From assembly GCF_023276355.1 (NCBI RefSeq), contig NZ_JALLPL010000001.1, positions 2,418,001-2,482,000 of the forward strand: a stretch of 64,000 nucleotides of DNA. Direction: 5' to 3'. The notes under the pieces are model-generated. The model saw only the letters and a program-made list of their open reading frames with translations. It did not search any database and was not told where the DNA came from. Shown here piece after piece: positions 657 to 36,549 of this stretch; the first letter of the stretch is position 1; every line of letters starts with the position of its first letter. The position numbers and the translations under genes are program-made. The stretch comes from Haloplanus sp. XH21 (GTDB taxonomy: Archaea; Halobacteriota; Halobacteria; Halobacteriales; Haloferacaceae).

Positions 657-2474
657 ATGTCATCGCCCGTCCGTCGCGACGTGATCCGGGTGGATCTCTC
701 CGCGGAGACCGTCGAACGGGAGCGCGTGCCCGCCGCGTGGCGACGGGACTTCCTGGGCGGCAAGGGCCTCGGCGCGAGATACCTCTACGAGGAACTCGAC
801 GCCGGGACTGACCCGCTCGGCCCCGACAACCGCCTTGCCCTCCTGCTCGGCCCGCTCTCGGGCTATCTCCCCGGAGAGTCGCGATACGCCGCCGTCACCA
901 AGTCGCCGCTGACGGGGACCTTTCTCGACTCCTACAGCGGCGGATCGTTCGCCGACGCCCTCGCCGGTGCCCTCCCGGAGGCGTTCGGCCTGCTCATTCA
1001 GGGCGCGGCCGACCACCCCCTGACGCTCACCGTCGCGGACGGCACGGCGACCCTCTCGGACGCGAGCGATCTGTGGGGCGCGGACACCGCCGCCGTCGAC
1101 GACGCCCTCGACGGATCGGTCGCCTGTATCGGCCCTGCCGGCGAGAATCAGGTCGCGTACGCGACGATCGCGTCCGACGGCGGCGACCACCACGCCGGGC
1201 GCGGCGGAGCCGGCGCGGTGATGGGGGCAAAGCGCCTGAAAGCCGTCGCCGTCAGCGGCGACCCACCGGACCAGTCGGCCGATCTGGCCGCGCTCCGCGA
1301 CCGCTACGACGACGCGTATCGCGACGACGACACCGGCCGCTGGCAGGCCGCTGGCGAGACGGTCGAGAGCGTCGACTTCGCCAACGAAGTGGGCGTCCTG
1401 TCCACCCGGGGATGGCAGGGTGGCTCGTTCGAGGACGCCGGCGACATCGGCGTCGAGGCGGTCCGCGAGGCCGCCACCGGACGGGAGAACGCGGACGACG
1501 CGGTGCCGGGCGGGTTCCGCGTCGACACCGACGACGGCGAGACGGTCCCCCGCGGCGGCGGCCTGATGTCGCTCGGCGCGGGCCTGGGCATCGACGACTT
1601 CGACGACGTGGCGCGTCTCGGCGCGCGCTGTGACCGCCTCGGGATGGACGTCATCAGCGCCGGCAACGCCGTGGCGTGGGCGATGCGGACGGACGAGTCG
1701 TCCCTCTCGTTCGGCGACGCCGACGCCGCGGCCGACCTGCTCAACGCCATCGCGGCGCGCTCGTCCGACCTGGGCGACGCGCTCGCCGACGGCGTGGACG
1801 CCGCCGACACGGCGGACGACGAGGGCGTGCCGACGGTCAAATCGATGGAACTACCGGCGTACGATCCGCGGGGCGCAGCCGGCATGGCCCTGGCGTACGC
1901 CACCAGCGACCGGGGTGGCTGTCACCGCCGCGCCCGACCGGTCGAACAGGAAGCGTTCGAGCGCGACGCCTGGACCACCGCGGACCGTGTCACCACGGTG
2001 ATCGGGGCACAGAACGCCCGCGCCGTGCTCTGGAGTCTCGTCGTCGACGACTTCGCCGGCGAGACCATGTGGGAGGACCTCGGCGTGGAGTGGCTACGGG
2101 CGGTCGGCCTCGAGTACGACCGCGAGACGCTGGCGACGCTCGGCGAACGCGTCTGGACGCTCGTTCGGCTGTTCAACGTCCGCGAGGGGTTCGACCGCGC
2201 GGACGACTCGCTGCCGGACGTCTTCGAGACGCCGATGCCCGACGGCCCCGCGGAGGGGCGGGCCATCGACCGCGACGCGTTCGACGCGATGCTCGACGGC
2301 TACTACCTGGCGCGTGGCTGGTCGACCGACGGCATCCCGACCCGCCGGACGGTCGACCGACTGGGCTTATCAGAGGTCGTCGACGACGAGACGCCGCTCG
2401 ACGACGACGACGCGCCACCCGAACCGGCCGGCGGCGTCGACCGGAACCGTCGACGCGACCGACCCGACCGATGA
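657..2474 (+). CDS. Aldehyde:ferredoxin oxidoreductase-like protein lacking Fe-S ligands
   Basis: This 605-residue protein has the AOR fold signature: FLGGKGLGARYLYEEL near the N-terminus, LTGTFLDSYSGGSFADALA, GPAGENQVAYATI and the DPRGAAGMALAYATS block. True AORs bind a tungstopterin and a [4Fe-4S] cluster. The window's other AOR (15876-17810) has CHSCPVAC at residues ~305-312 and a late Cys in DICKF. Here the matching places read DDAVPGGFRVD (about residue 282) and GAQNARAVLWS, so all four expected cluster cysteines are absent. The C-terminal ~30 residues are a low-complexity acidic/Arg tail. ATG at 657 is preferred over upstream codons because it begins the conserved fold and leaves a short gap after arcS. 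Whether it still binds a metallopterin or is a non-catalytic paralogue is open. Confidence 0.85.
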   Translation: MSSPVRRDVIRVDLSAETVERERVPAAWRRDFLGGKGLGARYLYEELDAGTDPLGPDNRLALLLGPLSGYLPGESRYAAVTKSPLTGTFLDSYSGGSFADALAGALPEAFGLLIQGAADHPLTLTVADGTATLSDASDLWGADTAAVDDALDGSVACIGPAGENQVAYATIASDGGDHHAGRGGAGAVMGAKRLKAVAVSGDPPDQSADLAALRDRYDDAYRDDDTGRWQAAGETVESVDFANEVGVLSTRGWQGGSFEDAGDIGVEAVREAATGRENADDAVPGGFRVDTDDGETVPRGGGLMSLGAGLGIDDFDDVARLGARCDRLGMDVISAGNAVAWAMRTDESSLSFGDADAAADLLNAIAARSSDLGDALADGVDAADTADDEGVPTVKSMELPAYDPRGAAGMALAYATSDRGGCHRRARPVEQEAFERDAWTTADRVTTVIGAQNARAVLWSLVVDDFAGETMWEDLGVEWLRAVGLEYDRETLATLGERVWTLVRLFNVREGFDRADDSLPDVFETPMPDGPAEGRAIDRDAFDAMLDGYYLARGWSTDGIPTRRTVDRLGLSEVVDDETPLDDDDAPPEPAGGVDRNRRRDRPDR

Positions 2475-2650
2475 CCGAGGACGCCACGACGGGGTCGAAC
2501 CCGTCCCGCCCGCACCCCTGTTATCGGTGTGGGACAACCATCGAACCCGGCCACGTCTACGGCGCGCTGGATCTGCTCGACGCCGAGGGCGAACTCCAGG
2601 TGTTGCTCTGTCGATCGTGTGCCGCCGAGTTGCGCGACTTTCTCGGGTAG
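2471..2650 (+). CDS. Small zinc-ribbon protein
   Basis: A 59-residue protein whose ATG overlaps the AOR-like stop in an ATGA coupling. It carries two Cys pairs, CYRCG near residue 17 and CRSCA near residue 47, which should bind one zinc ion in a ribbon. Acidic composition is typical of haloarchaeal micro-proteins. No enzyme function can be read; translational coupling suggests it is made together with the AOR-like protein. Confidence 0.75.
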   Translation: MTEDATTGSNPSRPHPCYRCGTTIEPGHVYGALDLLDAEGELQVLLCRSCAAELRDFLG

Positions 2651-2690: not shown

Positions 2691-3077
2691 ATGGACGAGT
2701 TCGATCTTGGCGTCCCGAAGCAGATTCTCGAATCGCTCCCGGAGGAGGACGAGGCGGCCAAGCAGGACATGCAGCGCGCCGTCGCCGGTCTCGAAGCACG
2801 CCTCAATCAGGCCGTCGAGGCCGCCGATGACGAGAGCCAGGCCGCACAGGGCGTCGTCGACGCGCTCGAACGCCTCGAGGACCAGCTCGAACAGTACGAC
2901 GAGTTCGTTCCCGAACTCCGCGCGTGGGGACAGTCGCCCATCTACGCCATCGCGTGGCGAAACCTGCAGGCTGACCTCATCATGCAGATCCAGGAGGTCG
3001 GCTGGGTCGCGGAACGACTCGACCGCGAGCGCAACTACCGGACCGTCGAGGACGGCATCCGTCTGCGCGACCGGTAG
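2691..3077 (+). CDS. Conserved haloarchaeal protein, predicted coiled coil
   Basis: A 128-residue acidic protein that I do not recognise by name. Residues ~15-75 form a long helical stretch with heptad-like spacing (EEDEAAKQDMQRAVAGLEARL, then VVDALERLEDQLEQYDEF), so a coiled coil or helical bundle is likely. The C-terminal part (WGQSPIYAIAWRNLQADLIM) is amphipathic. ATG at 2691 follows a short gap with TTTTACC about 27 nt upstream, matching a leaderless haloarchaeal promoter. No signal peptide or catalytic motif is visible. Confidence 0.75.
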   Translation: MDEFDLGVPKQILESLPEEDEAAKQDMQRAVAGLEARLNQAVEAADDESQAAQGVVDALERLEDQLEQYDEFVPELRAWGQSPIYAIAWRNLQADLIMQIQEVGWVAERLDRERNYRTVEDGIRLRDR

Positions 3078-3135: not shown

Positions 3136-3420
3136 ATGGATCTGGAACTGCGGTTTTTCGCCACGTTCCGCGAAGCGGTCGGCCAGAAGACGCTCGAACA
3201 CGAGTTCGAGGATGGCGCGACCGTCGGAGAGGTCCTTGCGACCCTCGAATCCGAATACGGCGGTCTCGAAGGACAAATCCTCGACGACGAGGGCGGCCTA
3301 CAGCCGAATCTCAACATTCTGAAAAACGGGCGCGAAGTGTTGCATATGGAGGGCACTGACACCGTGATGGAAGACGGCGACACGCTGTCGGTGTTCCCGC
3401 CGGTAGCTGGTGGCGCATGA
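3136..3420 (+). CDS. Ubiquitin-like small archaeal modifier (SAMP3/MoaD-like)
   Basis: A 94-residue beta-grasp protein with the MoaD/SAMP signature: N-terminal LELRFFATFREAVGQK, middle NLNILKNGREV and C-terminal SVFPPVAGG. SAMPs are adenylated by UbaA and either attached to protein lysines or used as sulfur carriers for molybdopterin and tRNA thiolation. It resembles Haloferax SAMP3 most in my memory. Unlike the usual family, one Ala follows the diglycine, so the mature GG terminus would need trimming. The alanine codon precedes the ATGA that starts the next gene. A TATA-like CTTTTTAC lies ~27 nt upstream. Confidence 0.85.
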   Translation: MDLELRFFATFREAVGQKTLEHEFEDGATVGEVLATLESEYGGLEGQILDDEGGLQPNLNILKNGREVLHMEGTDTVMEDGDTLSVFPPVAGGA

Positions 3421-3686
3421 GTGACGAGTGGGTCCGCCGCGAGCGCTCGTTTCGCGGTATCTCGAAACGCCTGGCGATCCAGTATCTCGAAACGCTGGGT
3501 GGCGAGCAGGTCGACGACGACCACGTCGAGGGCGAGGGCTGGGAGGCGACGCTCTCCGAGCAGACCATGACGGTCGGGCCCTCGATGTCGCTGACCCAGA
3601 TCGACTTCGTCTTCGAGGGCGATCCCGACGTGCTCGACCCGCTCATCGAGCGCTTCGCACAGAAAGCGATGCGCGCTGGAGGATGA
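3417..3686 (+). CDS. MoaD-related C-terminal domain-like protein
   Basis: An 89-residue protein coupled to the SAMP gene by ATGA. Its sequence (MSDEWVRRERSFRGISKRLAI, TLSEQTMTVGPSMSLTQIDFVFEG) resembles the small DUF1952-type domain that accompanies MoaD-like proteins; this is from memory and not certain. The position suggests it works with the SAMP/molybdopterin pathway. It is cytosolic, with no cysteine pairs and no membrane segment. Confidence 0.7.
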   Translation: MSDEWVRRERSFRGISKRLAIQYLETLGGEQVDDDHVEGEGWEATLSEQTMTVGPSMSLTQIDFVFEGDPDVLDPLIERFAQKAMRAGG

Positions 3687-15875: not shown

Positions 15876-17810
15876 TTAGTCGTCTGCCGGAGCCTGACCG
15901 CCGGAGCCGGAGACGCCGGTGCCGGGGCCGATGTCGATGTCGAGCCGTTGGAGCGTGTCGTCGGTGACGACGCCGTCTTCCCAGCCACGGTGGCTGTAGT
16001 ACTCGTCTTTCATCTCGTCGAGTTCGCACAGCTCACCCTCGGAGCCGCGCTGGCCGGGGATGGCCTCGTCGTCGCCTTCGACGAACCGACCCGGAAGCGT
16101 GTCGTCCGAGCCGTCGAAGCCGACGAGGTTGTTGTAGTAGCGCTCGAGGTTGTAGACGCGCTCACCAGCCGTCATGAGCTCGTCTTCCGTAAGGTCACGG
16201 CCGGTCATGCCGTTGTACTGCTTGATGTACTCCTCGATGCCCTCTGCGAACGCGTTGAACTTGCAGATGTCGAACGAGTCCGAGATGGCGTGCAGGTCCT
16301 GGAAGGTGGCGCACAGCTCGCCCTTGCCCTCCCACTCGTAGGGATCGACCTTCTCCGGGATGCCGAGAACCTCGGCAGCCGGCGTGTAGCCGCGCAGGTG
16401 GCAGGCACCGCGATTCGACGTCGCGTAGCCGATGCCCATCCCCTTCATCGCACGGGGGTCGTAGGCGGCGATGGTCTGGCCCTTGACGTCGAGACGGCAG
16501 TCGTGGGCGCCCTGCTCCTCGGCGATGCGCTTGACGCCTTTGGCGAGCAGGTCCGCGAGTTCGCCGTCGCGGTGACCGACCTCTTCGATGAGGTCGATCA
16601 TGTGTTCCTCGTCGCCCCAGTCGACGTTCTCGTCCAGGTCGTCGAGTTTGCCCTTCTCGGTCATCTCCATCGACATGGCGAAGATGTTCCCCATGTCGAT
16701 GGTGTCGATGCCCATGTCGTTACAGCGGTCGATCATGACCGCGATGGCGTCTCGGTCGTCGTTCGCCGAGTTGGTGCCGAGAGCCCACGCGCTCTCGTAC
16801 TCGTAGGACTCCATCCGGACGTTCATGTCCTGGCCCTTGTGCTTGTAGTTGACCTCGACTTCCTTCTTACAGGCGACGGGGCAGGAGTGACAGGTCGGCT
16901 CGTCGACGAGGATGTTCTCGCGAACGTTCTCGCCGCTGATGCGCTCTGCCTCGATGTCCGTCCCCTCTGCCTCGTTCATCGCGAAGGAGGACGTGTACTG
17001 CCCGTTCTTGGTCGGGTGAGCGTCCATCTCCTCCGTGATGTTCATGAGCACGTTGGTGCCGTACATCGAGAGCGCGCCCTCGTTGGGCGCGGTGACATCG
17101 GACTCCTGAATGACCTTCATGGCCTGACGGGCGCCCTCGCCGAACGTGTCGGAGTCGGCGGGCTTGGGCATATCCGTCCCCGCTTTCACGATGACGGCCT
17201 TGAGGCCCTTGTTGCCCATCACGCAGCCGGTGCCACCGCGGCCCGAGACGCGGTCGTCCTCGTTGACGATGCAGGAGTAGCGAACCTCGTTCTCGCCGGC
17301 CGGACCGATGGCCATGTGCGAGAGGTTCTTGCCGTAGGACCCGTCGACCTCTTCCTCGAGGATTTCGCGGGTCTCGTGGACGCCCTTGCCCCAGACGTGA
17401 GAGGCGTCGCGGAGTTCGACCTCGCCGTCCTCGACGACGGCGTAGACGGGGTCGTCGGCCTGGCCGTCGAAGACGAGGCCGTCGAAGCCGGCCCACTTGA
17501 GTCGCGCTCCCGACCAGCCACCGTGATGGGAGTCAGTGACGGTGCCCGTGAGCGGGGACTTCGTACAGATGGCGATGCGGCCACTCATGACGGCCTGCGA
17601 CCCGGTCAGGGGGCCGTTCATGAAGACGAGCCGGTTGTCGGGACCGAGCGGGTCCACGTCCGTCCCGGCGTCGAAGACGTACTTCACGCCCAGGCCGCGT
17701 CCGCCGATGTATTTCTTCGCGTCCTCGTCGTCGACGCCCTGATAGGAGACGTCTCCCGAACCGAGGTCCACGTGCGCTACGTGATCTCTGAATCCACCTA
17801 AGTCTGTCAT
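15876..17810 (-). CDS. Aldehyde:ferredoxin oxidoreductase (tungstopterin enzyme)
   Basis: A 644-residue AOR with all motifs intact. N-terminal YIGGRGLGVKYVFDAG and SPLTGTVTDSHHGGW bind the pterin, CHSCPVAC (about 305-312) plus a Cys in DSFDICKF (about 515) should ligate [4Fe-4S], and DPRAMKGMGIGYATSNRGAC is a second cofactor region. It oxidises aldehydes to acids with ferredoxin as acceptor in the cytosol. The C-terminal ~20 residues are a Gly/Ser/Asp tail. A 12-bp palindrome stands 2 nt before the ATG. The paralogue at 657-2474 has lost the cysteines. Confidence 0.92.
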   Translation of the reverse strand: MTDLGGFRDHVAHVDLGSGDVSYQGVDDEDAKKYIGGRGLGVKYVFDAGTDVDPLGPDNRLVFMNGPLTGSQAVMSGRIAICTKSPLTGTVTDSHHGGWSGARLKWAGFDGLVFDGQADDPVYAVVEDGEVELRDASHVWGKGVHETREILEEEVDGSYGKNLSHMAIGPAGENEVRYSCIVNEDDRVSGRGGTGCVMGNKGLKAVIVKAGTDMPKPADSDTFGEGARQAMKVIQESDVTAPNEGALSMYGTNVLMNITEEMDAHPTKNGQYTSSFAMNEAEGTDIEAERISGENVRENILVDEPTCHSCPVACKKEVEVNYKHKGQDMNVRMESYEYESAWALGTNSANDDRDAIAVMIDRCNDMGIDTIDMGNIFAMSMEMTEKGKLDDLDENVDWGDEEHMIDLIEEVGHRDGELADLLAKGVKRIAEEQGAHDCRLDVKGQTIAAYDPRAMKGMGIGYATSNRGACHLRGYTPAAEVLGIPEKVDPYEWEGKGELCATFQDLHAISDSFDICKFNAFAEGIEEYIKQYNGMTGRDLTEDELMTAGERVYNLERYYNNLVGFDGSDDTLPGRFVEGDDEAIPGQRGSEGELCELDEMKDEYYSHRGWEDGVVTDDTLQRLDIDIGPGTGVSGSGGQAPADD

Positions 17811-34051: not shown

Positions 34052-34437
34052 GCACGGGGGTTAGGCGGTTTCGGTTAAATGGGTTGCCGGTCGGGCGCGA
34101 CCCGCCCACCGGCAGCGAGACGCGTCGACGACCACGCCGCCCGAGGGTTCGCTGGGGATGCCTACACATATTCGGTCGGAAATGCGCCCAATAGGAGAAG
34201 AGAGAGGCCCTAAATCCCATCTCATTCATCGTATTTCCACTAATCTCTCAGAATAGAATACGAACGAACACACAACATTTTTGCGTTAGTGGTGTCCAGT
34301 CATCTTCAGCCTGTGGCTGAGAAACACCAGTATACGACCATGATACCCAATATTACTGCGATAGGTCGCCATTTCAGTGAACGTTCAGTCAGTTGTCGCC
34401 GAGCGCACGGCGCACCGACGCGAGTCGAGGTGACGCG
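34052..34437. promoter_or_regulatory. 386-nt non-coding region upstream of the nitrate operon
   Basis: I see no gene here. The mch promoter takes the first ~30 nt. Bases ~34160-34370 are AT-rich for this genome. A nested hairpin occupies 34290-34329: outer arms TGGTGT/ACACCA and inner arms TCAGCC/GGCTGA around TGT. A long untranslated leader or several operators for nitrogen control would fit the length. Confidence 0.5.
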
Positions 34438-36549
34438 ATGACCGATCCGGTTCCGACGACGTGCATGCGCTGTGCGGTGGGCTGTGGCCTGATCCAGCGC
34501 GGCGTCGACATCGGCTACGGCATCGATACCGTGCGTGGCAACGCCAACCACCCCGTCAACCGCGGAATGGCGTGTCAGCGCGGCGTCAGCGAGACGGCCG
34601 ACCCCGACGGCGAGTGGCTCACGCGGCCGATGGTCCGGCGTGACGGCGAACTGCAGAAGACCACCTGGGATACGGCGCTGTTCGAGGCCCAGCGCGGCCT
34701 CGGGGCGGCGATGGACGCGGACCCGGATGCCGTGGCCGTCCTCGGCAGCGGCCAGCAGACCAACGAGGCGGCGTACGCGCTCGGGAAGTTGGCCCGCGGC
34801 GGCGTCGGCACTCGGTATTACGACGCCAACACGACGCTCTGCATGGCCAGCGCCGTCACGGCGTACTACGACGCCTTCGGGAGCGACGCCCCACCGCCCA
34901 CCTACGAGGACATCCCCGAGGCGGATGGCCACGTCGTCTGGGGCGCCAACCCGGCGGTCGCCCATCCCGTCATGTGCCGGTGGATCACCAGCAGCGCCGA
35001 GGACGGCGACCTGATCGTGGTGGATCCGGTCGAGACCAAGACCGCGCGGGCGGCCGACCATCACGTCGCCGTCGACCCCGGCGGCGACCTAGACCTCGCT
35101 CGGGCGGTGCTGGCCCACGTCGTGGCGACGGACGGCGTCGACGAGGCGTTCGTCGACCGGGCGACGACCGGATTCGACGACCTCGTGGCGGGCCTGCCCG
35201 ACGCAGAGACGGCGGCCGAACGCGCGGGCGTCTCGATGGCGGATGTCGAGCGCCTCGCGGAGACGCTGTCGACGGACACCCTCATCTACTGGGGCATGGG
35301 CGTCAACCAGAGCGTCCAAGGGACCGACACCGCGGGCGCGCTCATCGACCTCTGTCTCGCCACGGGCAATCTCGGCCCCGGCAGCGGCCCGTTCTCGCTG
35401 ACGGGACAGGCCAACTCGATGGGGACGCGGGTCTGTTCCTCGAAAGGAACCTGGCCCGGCCACCGCGACTTCGAGGACCCCGACGAACGGGCGACCGTCG
35501 CCGACGCCTGGGACGTGCCCGTCGACCGCCTGCCCGACGACGCCGGCCCCGGTCCCGTCGGCATCGTCGACGCCATCGACGACGGCCCGGTGGAGGCGGT
35601 GTACGCCGTCGCCACCAACCCCGTCGCGGGGATGCCCGACGCCACCGACATCGCCGACCGCCTCGACGACGCCTTCCTCGTCGTGCAGGACGCGTTCCGG
35701 ACCGAGACGGTCGAACACGCCGACGTGGTGTTGCCGGCGGCGACGTGGGGCGAGTCGAACGGCACCGCGATGAACATGGAGCGCACCGTCTCGCGGGTGC
35801 GGCCCGCGAGCGACCTGCCCCGCGGCGTCCGGACCGACCTCGGCATCATCACGACGCTGGGGAACGTCCTCGTCGACGGCCTGTTCGACCCGACGGCCGA
35901 CCCCGCCGCCGTCTTCGACGAGTTCGCGTCGCTGACGGCGGGCACCGACGCCGACTGCTCGGGCATCAGTCACGACCGTCTCGACGAGGAACTCGCGGTG
36001 CGGTGGCCGGCGCCCGACGCCGACACCAGCGCCGGCTATCGGTATCACGAAGCCGACGGCGACTGGTCGTTCCCGACGCCTTCGGGGCGGGCGCGGTTCA
36101 GCGGCGGGACGGGACGACCCCTGCCGGAGGCCACCGACGACGACTATCCACTGGTGCTCACGACGGCCCGCGAGGCAGACGGCTACAACACGGGCGTCCG
36201 TTCTCGGTCCTCGCCGGCGGAACCAGGGACGCTCGTCGCACGCATACATCCTGCCACGGTCGAGGCACATCGCTCGGCGGTGGAGCCGAACGAGGCCGAC
36301 GAACTCCACGCCTGCGTCGAGTCGCGGCGGGGCCGCGCCGTCGCCCGCGTCGTCGTGGACGACGCGATTCCAACCGGGATGGTCTGGCTGCCGATCCACC
36401 ACCCCGCGACGAACGACCTGACCCATCCCGCGACCGACCCGCGCTCCGATGAGCCGAACTTCAAGCAGTGTGCGGTGCGTCTCGTCGCCCCCTCTGCGGC
36501 GGCGGAGACTCCCGCCTTCGAGCGCGAACGACCGCCACAGCACCCATGA
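34438..36549 (+). CDS. nasA: Assimilatory nitrate reductase NasA
   Basis: A 703-residue Mo-bisMGD oxidoreductase. The N-terminal [4Fe-4S] motif CMRCAVGC (residues 9-16) with a later Cys in GMACQRG, then the molybdopterin domains with WGMGVNQSVQGTDTAGALID, GNLGPGSGPFSLTGQANSMG and ATNPVAGMPD. The C-terminal binding domain includes TAREADGYNTGVRSR and NFKQCAVRL. It is cytosolic, lacks a Tat signal, and reduces nitrate to nitrite with ferredoxin. It starts an operon with the transporter gene by ATGA overlap. Confidence 0.92.
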   Translation: MTDPVPTTCMRCAVGCGLIQRGVDIGYGIDTVRGNANHPVNRGMACQRGVSETADPDGEWLTRPMVRRDGELQKTTWDTALFEAQRGLGAAMDADPDAVAVLGSGQQTNEAAYALGKLARGGVGTRYYDANTTLCMASAVTAYYDAFGSDAPPPTYEDIPEADGHVVWGANPAVAHPVMCRWITSSAEDGDLIVVDPVETKTARAADHHVAVDPGGDLDLARAVLAHVVATDGVDEAFVDRATTGFDDLVAGLPDAETAAERAGVSMADVERLAETLSTDTLIYWGMGVNQSVQGTDTAGALIDLCLATGNLGPGSGPFSLTGQANSMGTRVCSSKGTWPGHRDFEDPDERATVADAWDVPVDRLPDDAGPGPVGIVDAIDDGPVEAVYAVATNPVAGMPDATDIADRLDDAFLVVQDAFRTETVEHADVVLPAATWGESNGTAMNMERTVSRVRPASDLPRGVRTDLGIITTLGNVLVDGLFDPTADPAAVFDEFASLTAGTDADCSGISHDRLDEELAVRWPAPDADTSAGYRYHEADGDWSFPTPSGRARFSGGTGRPLPEATDDDYPLVLTTAREADGYNTGVRSRSSPAEPGTLVARIHPATVEAHRSAVEPNEADELHACVESRRGRAVARVVVDDAIPTGMVWLPIHHPATNDLTHPATDPRSDEPNFKQCAVRLVAPSAAAETPAFERERPPQHP

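Follow-up and report, generated by a model that had tools for sequence, protein, structure and literature searches.

A haloarchaeal AOR-family protein without iron-sulfur cysteines as a proposed accessory protein for formate dehydrogenase cofactor handling

What becomes of a member of the aldehyde oxidoreductase (AOR) family once every cysteine that should hold its [4Fe-4S] cluster is gone? The question is raised by a gene of Haloplanus sp. XH21 at positions 657..2474 (+) of the window, the whole stretch of 64,000 nucleotides analysed here. The ATG lies at 657 and the stop codon at 2472-2474, and the 605-aa product is referred to as AORx. An earlier note had suggested that it might have become a cofactor carrier, a regulatory subunit or an enzyme using another acceptor. 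The reading preferred here, with a probability of roughly one half, is that AORx is a catalytically retired AOR whose task is to handle the Mo/W-pterin cofactor during formate dehydrogenase (FDH) maturation, together with YqeC and MobA. The AOR family itself is known; the novel part is this functional proposal.

By both sequence and predicted fold, AORx belongs to the AOR family. The Pfam domains AFOR_N and AFOR_C match it with 216 and 287 bits (curated cut-offs 29.8 and 27), and AFOR domains are its only Pfam matches. AORx was aligned with the intact AOR paralogue of the window (15876..17810, -), in which all four cysteines are present, with 4 further paralogues of the genome and with the P. 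furiosus AOR 1aor. The genome carries 6 AOR-family genes, five with cluster cysteines and AORx. The numbering of the cluster cysteines and the roles of R76, R182, D338, D343 and D489 follow the 1AOR structure. According to this alignment, C288, C291, C295 and C494 of the P. furiosus enzyme correspond to D280, V283, F287 and D464 of AORx, and Cys occurs at any of these positions in 0/81 orthologues, bearing out the loss of all four cluster cysteines. The degenerate CxxCxxxC site (1494..1517, +; codons 280-287, aligned to C288/C291/C295) reads DDAVPGGF and fits the Gly/Asp loop described earlier. The late Cys had been said to give way to an Ala/Val segment, but its position is occupied by Asp, within WSLVVDDF (2031..2054, +; codons 459-466), and Asp stands there in 81/81 orthologues. 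A relocation of the cysteines was rejected. Only three Cys (157, 325 and 422) are present in the AORx of the window, which makes four protein Cys ligands impossible, and they were not simply moved, because the intact AOR, which bears the Fe-S cluster, has Cys at the positions matching 325 and 422 too.

The changes extend into the active site. Thr243, Glu313, Tyr427 and His448 have functional roles in AOR, and Glu313, Tyr312 and Tyr452 have been proposed to serve acid-base catalysis and proton relay (PMC12096430). At codon 301 (1557..1559, +), the position of the catalytic Glu313, AORx has Gly in the alignment, and Ala, Gly or Ser is found there in 81/81 orthologues. Tyr312 and Tyr452 are lost as well. 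In all 81 sequences D489xxGLC, the second pterin motif, has become W-S/C-L/F-x-x-D-D-F; the D489 position is Trp throughout (Trp459 in the window), and W459, D464, D465 and F466 are invariant in place of D489...C494. The N93 position is Tyr in 81/81. Retained are R76 (76/81), R182 and D343, the first pterin motif D338..D343 (D or N, then D, in the 81-row alignment) and the second-shell residues T243 (79/81), Y427 (78/81) and H448 (81/81). The equivalent of His448 is H423 in the RGGCHRR loop (1911..1931, +; codons 419-425), where R424 and R425 are clade-specific and C422, H423, R424 and R425 are invariant in 81/81 orthologues. The earlier view that the pterin-side motifs are kept thus holds for R76, R182, D343 and H448, while the second motif and Glu313 are lost. 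Compared with AOR/WOR enzymes, AORx shares both AFOR domains, the fold, R76, R182, T243, Y427, H448 and the first pterin motif, but lacks the four Cys ligands, Glu313 and the second pterin motif, and differs further in its linkage to FDH and cofactor genes.

These residues bear on whether AORx is still an enzyme, one that binds a Mo/W bis-pterin and supplies or uses formate-related carbon without an Fe-S relay, either by non-redox chemistry or by handing electrons straight to a partner, for example the electron chain of FDH. Retention of T243, Y427 and H448 within an AOR fold would suit such an enzyme, as would the strong invariance of the cleft and the new invariant residues R424, R425, W459, D464 and D465; the loss of Glu313, Tyr312 and Tyr452 along with the cluster and D489 argues against it. 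This explanation is considered unlikely, and the earlier suggestion of an enzyme using another acceptor has lost ground, since Glu313 is gone as well as the cluster.

The AlphaFold2 model of AORx, built on the clade alignment, reached a pLDDT of 91.3 and a pTM of 0.92, a high-confidence prediction of the three-domain AOR fold. When the model was compared with the PDB by Foldseek, the top matches were AOR/FOR structures with TM 0.84-0.89, and five of these were matched (1aor, 9mqx, 9g7j, 8c0z and 1b25). The sole internal stretch with pLDDT below 50 comprises residues 420-424, the loop of the His448 equivalent.

A contig search found 160 relatives, of which 80 were kept; together with the AORx of the window, these make up the alignment. 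By their titles the 80 orthologues are haloarchaeal, apart from two labelled only 'halophilic archaeon' or 'Euryarchaeota archaeon'. AORx is found in several families of Halobacteria, and high-scoring AORx was detected in haloarchaea only in a phylum-wide search. The orthologue from H. ruber is 81% identical to that of the window. Two AORx copies on different contigs were observed in Haladaptatus halobius, H. salinisoli, Halogranum amylolyticum and Haloterrigena salina (L039/L040, L041/L045, L037/L102 and L046/L066), and in both Haladaptatus species they lie on different replicons. The reading frame is intact through the whole gene in 80/80 orthologues retrieved, and pairwise dN/dS between close orthologues is 0.19-0.29. 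The AORx clade is under purifying selection; the cysteine-free form is neither confined to one genome nor under relaxed selection. A gene decaying and drifting after loss of function could explain why so many catalytic residues are lost, but the open frames, the dN/dS values, the many invariant residues and the occurrence in several families make this extremely improbable. Decay and a single-genome quirk were both rejected, given the width of the clade, the selection kept and the open frames.

AORx is monophyletic in the family tree (100/100), and its successive sisters are supported by 99/96 and 100/99. The earlier note had asked whether a cysteine-free clade is conserved with the small zinc protein; the clade is conserved, and the zinc protein is not its general neighbour. 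The sister AORs L145-L148 come from genomes G038, G057, G246 and G269 (L147 = G246:C2:262521-264332; L148 = G269:C28:13854-15596); L145-L147 are haloarchaeal, and L148 belongs to another family of the same phylum. Like AORx, they carry DSYSGG (N93 to Tyr), DRGxxHxRAxPI and the change of D489 to Trp, Phe or Tyr. Unlike AORx, they still have the cysteines of CxxCxxxC, the late Cys, and Glu313 within GPEYET. Judged by these motifs, the sisters are an intermediate stage between ordinary AORs and AORx. It is likely that the second pterin site was altered first and that the cluster and Glu313 were then lost once. Two long branches, L009 and L001, are of uncertain placement, and the order of losses is unaffected by them.

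Immediately downstream, a zinc ribbon of 59 aa (2471..2650, +) overlaps the AORx gene by ATGA, and it had been proposed to replace the lost electron or structural role. Across the 80 loci the zinc ribbon adjoins AORx in three Haloplanus genomes only. It lies directly upstream of YqeC in Halopenitus (L047:16694-16903 and L068:17056-17256). In genome G001 it forms a single reading frame with YqeC (L161:6550-7494), and zinc ribbon-YqeC, MobA, a 128-aa protein and a ubiquitin-like protein (Ubl) occupy the same slot together. From these arrangements the zinc ribbon appears linked to YqeC rather than to AORx. Since its adjacency to AORx is local to Haloplanus, it is no clade-wide stand-in for the cluster, and the replacement idea was rejected.

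Three further genes follow in the window. The 128-aa protein (2691..3077, +) is conserved beside the MoaD-type gene and, elsewhere, beside MobA/YqeC. The MoaD-type Ubl of the SAMP family (3136..3420, +), with C-terminus PPVAGGA, matches NCBIfam NF041918 with 109 bits (cut-off 60) and Pfam ThiS. Adjoining it is an 89-aa protein with C-terminal Ala-Gly-Gly (3417..3686, +), probably the halobacterial GG-tailed family of TBP-like fold of Makarova and Koonin, who described that family beside a MoaD-like Ubl and predicted it to be a second kind of Ubl (PMC2948915). The SAMP/MoaD cluster was rejected as a clade-wide partner of AORx, as the Ubl occurs in 4/80 loci. Elsewhere in the genome, YqeC and MobA form an adjacent pair 28 kb upstream of AORx and an FDH of ~700 aa lies at 872885; AORx adjoins neither FDH nor YqeC. 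An intact AOR paralogue (865962-867617) is located about 5 kb from this FDH, and proximity to FDH is therefore not unique to AORx. Another FDH relative in the window, a molybdopterin oxidoreductase at 34393-36549 (+), scores 116 bits against the FDH query; it is probably not an FDH but an assimilatory nitrate reductase.

Neighbour genes of the 80 AORx loci were clustered without preselection and then annotated. FDH alpha was found within 8 genes of AORx in 46/80 loci. Other neighbours included a DUF7124 protein (35), a TorD/NarJ-type chaperone (32), YqeC (31), an HdrA-like protein (25), MobA (21), FDH beta (19) and MoaA (6). YqeC (TIGR03172) is often adjacent and is a partner of AORx, not a homologue. 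The HdrA-like/FlpD multi-ferredoxin protein lies beside FDH and TorD genes at L056:16142-18274 (-) and at 24 further AORx loci, an arrangement that recalls the FDH-heterodisulfide reductase systems of methanogens. The DUF7124 (PF23439) protein, whose N-terminal part is long and acidic, was noted at L052:11743-12528 and at 34 further loci. As co-occurrence markers, DUF7124 (one copy or more in 60/60 genomes) and the MobA-like PF12804 (60/60) were uninformative. Co-location with FDH could also reflect a pathway in which AORx acts as an enzyme, but the neighbours are as much assembly proteins (YqeC, MobA, TorD and MoaA) as metabolic ones.

Co-occurrence was examined in 60 genomes of the family (41 with AORx, 19 without) and in 26 more of the same order (9 with, 17 without). 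FDH subfamilies A-C, delimited by score and length after their co-location with AORx was seen, were found in 40/41 AORx-bearing versus 1/19 AORx-lacking genomes of the first panel (Fisher p = 4e-13), and the single AORx-bearing exception is a 62%-complete draft. The second panel gave 9/9 versus 4/17. Over the 86 genomes of both panels, FDH A-C occur in 49/50 versus 5/36 (p ~5e-17), a probability that, like the others given here, ignores the relatedness of genomes and is partly post hoc, since FDH and YqeC were picked for testing as neighbours of AORx. YqeC was present in 41/41 versus 4/19 genomes of the first panel and in 9/9 versus 4/17 of the second, a partial match below the cut-off in G271 being scored as absent, which gives 50/50 versus 8/36 overall (Fisher p ~9e-16). 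Some AORx-lacking genomes have other FDH-like proteins with RxCH, and the association covers the three subfamilies only. Within-genus contrasts are the better guide: FDH types track AORx in 7/8 genera of mixed presence, as in g6, g10, g17, g25, g27, g28 and g31 FDH A-C occur where AORx occurs and are missing where it is missing, and the exception is g5, where G052 has FDH type C without AORx. Within the 41 genomes, FDH lies at most 20 kb from AORx in 25 and YqeC at most 10 kb in 17; since YqeC is more than 10 kb away in the other 24, the co-occurrence is not due to linkage alone. AORx was not detected in five FDH-bearing genomes, G052, G209, G227, G266 and G271 (for the last four, five candidates were scored per genome), and is therefore not universally required, which casts some doubt on a role in FDH maturation.

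Each of the three FDH types has its own architecture: an exported FdnG-like type, an NAD-type with a NuoF-like subunit, and a type of ~700 aa with no signal peptide noted. The signature RxCHxxTV is common to all of them. One AORx with three FDH architectures fits a shared maturase better than a dedicated subunit, and a single substrate pathway serving all three, as an AORx enzyme would imply, is less natural. The same observation weakens the view that AORx plays a regulatory or structural part, for example as a cofactor sensor or scaffold, in the FDH complex or alongside another AOR, with no transfer of cofactor. AORs form dimers, and paralogues often turn into inactive partners; the five cysteine-bearing AORs of the genome would offer such an opportunity, and the DUF7124 gene directly downstream of AORx on the same strand in 33 loci suggests a protein complex. 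Many residues of the old cofactor cleft, in turn, are among the invariant ones, which suggests ligand binding, and such a partner role appears quite unlikely. Both the cofactor carrier and the regulatory subunit of the earlier note are compatible with the data, and the context of FDH, YqeC, MobA and the MoaD-type Ubl favours the carrier.

AORx might also be a general store or carrier of the Mo/W cofactor, with FDH merely marking the heavy users. Co-location with MobA, MoaA and the MoaD-type Ubl is in its favour. Genomes without AORx, on the other hand, still have other enzymes of the DMSO-reductase family and some other AORs. The control with PF02738 molybdenum hydroxylases also showed no association with AORx (18/41 versus 5/19, p=0.26), and these enzymes were rejected as its client. 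A general carrier is thus regarded as improbable.

A gap into which a maturation protein could fit is suggested by the absence of FdhD (PF02634), which was detected in 0/60 haloarchaeal genomes and in 8/14 control genomes. FDH activity needs a sulfido ligand, installed by FdhD/FdsC; a point against the proposed role is that FDH may also gain this ligand chemically (PMC12140954). Halobacteria often have FDH without fdhD, and the route and proteins of cofactor insertion and sulfuration were called an open question in a 2023 review (PMC10609526). AORx resembles FdhD/FdsC, the sulfurtransferase and Moco chaperone of FDH, in the proposed loading of cofactor for several FDHs, but has no sequence relation to it. 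That AORx works like FdhD is a proposal; it is no FdhD homologue. A precedent is offered by YdhV, an AOR-family Mo protein of E. coli that binds bis-Mo-MPT; in vitro, MobA turns the cofactor extracted from it into bis-MGD (PMC9103625). YdhV differs from AORx in that it is described with an (unstable) [4Fe-4S] cluster, whereas AORx has none of the cysteines. Bacterial YqeC is tied to selenium-dependent molybdenum hydroxylases, while haloarchaeal YqeC is tied to FDH and AORx. Deletion of YqeC in C. difficile had no clear phenotype, which speaks against the proposed role (PMC11448449).

The maturation role is preferred for several reasons: the partners of AORx are assembly proteins, a single AORx clade accompanies FDHs of three architectures, the old cleft supplies many of the invariant residues, and bis-Mo-MPT derived from YdhV serves MobA in vitro. 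Loss of the pterin motif of domain 3 (D489) casts doubt on cofactor handling. We infer that AORx binds the cofactor, contacts FDH, YqeC or MobA and takes part in a maturation step. On this reading AORx would have ceased to be an aldehyde oxidoreductase and would act as an accessory protein for the handling of the haloarchaeal FDH cofactor. The predicted AOR fold is retained, as are the phosphate/pterin-binding base and one of two pterin motifs, and the old active-site cleft may hold either a bis-pterin Mo/W cofactor or its precursor. AORx, the P-loop-like YqeC and MobA would together support guanylylation and/or loading of the terminal (sulfido) ligand, and the cofactor would then be delivered to apo-FDH, a job done elsewhere by FdhD. 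The more specific idea that haloarchaea mature FDH without FdhD by using AORx as a bis-pterin scaffold for MobA and, with YqeC, for loading the sulfido ligand is tentative and somewhat doubtful.

The literature searched, with subscription papers and preprints mostly outside its scope, gave no account of a cysteine-free AOR clade or of an association of AORx with FDH or YqeC, and 'haloarch' and 'Haloferax' do not occur in the main text of a 2026 paper on WOR classification. AORx and YqeC, which both follow FDH across genomes, provide two concrete candidates for FDH maturation without fdhD. YqeC gains a context outside selenium-dependent molybdenum hydroxylases. The AORx clade also documents how an AOR lost its cluster and a catalytic residue via recognisable intermediates.
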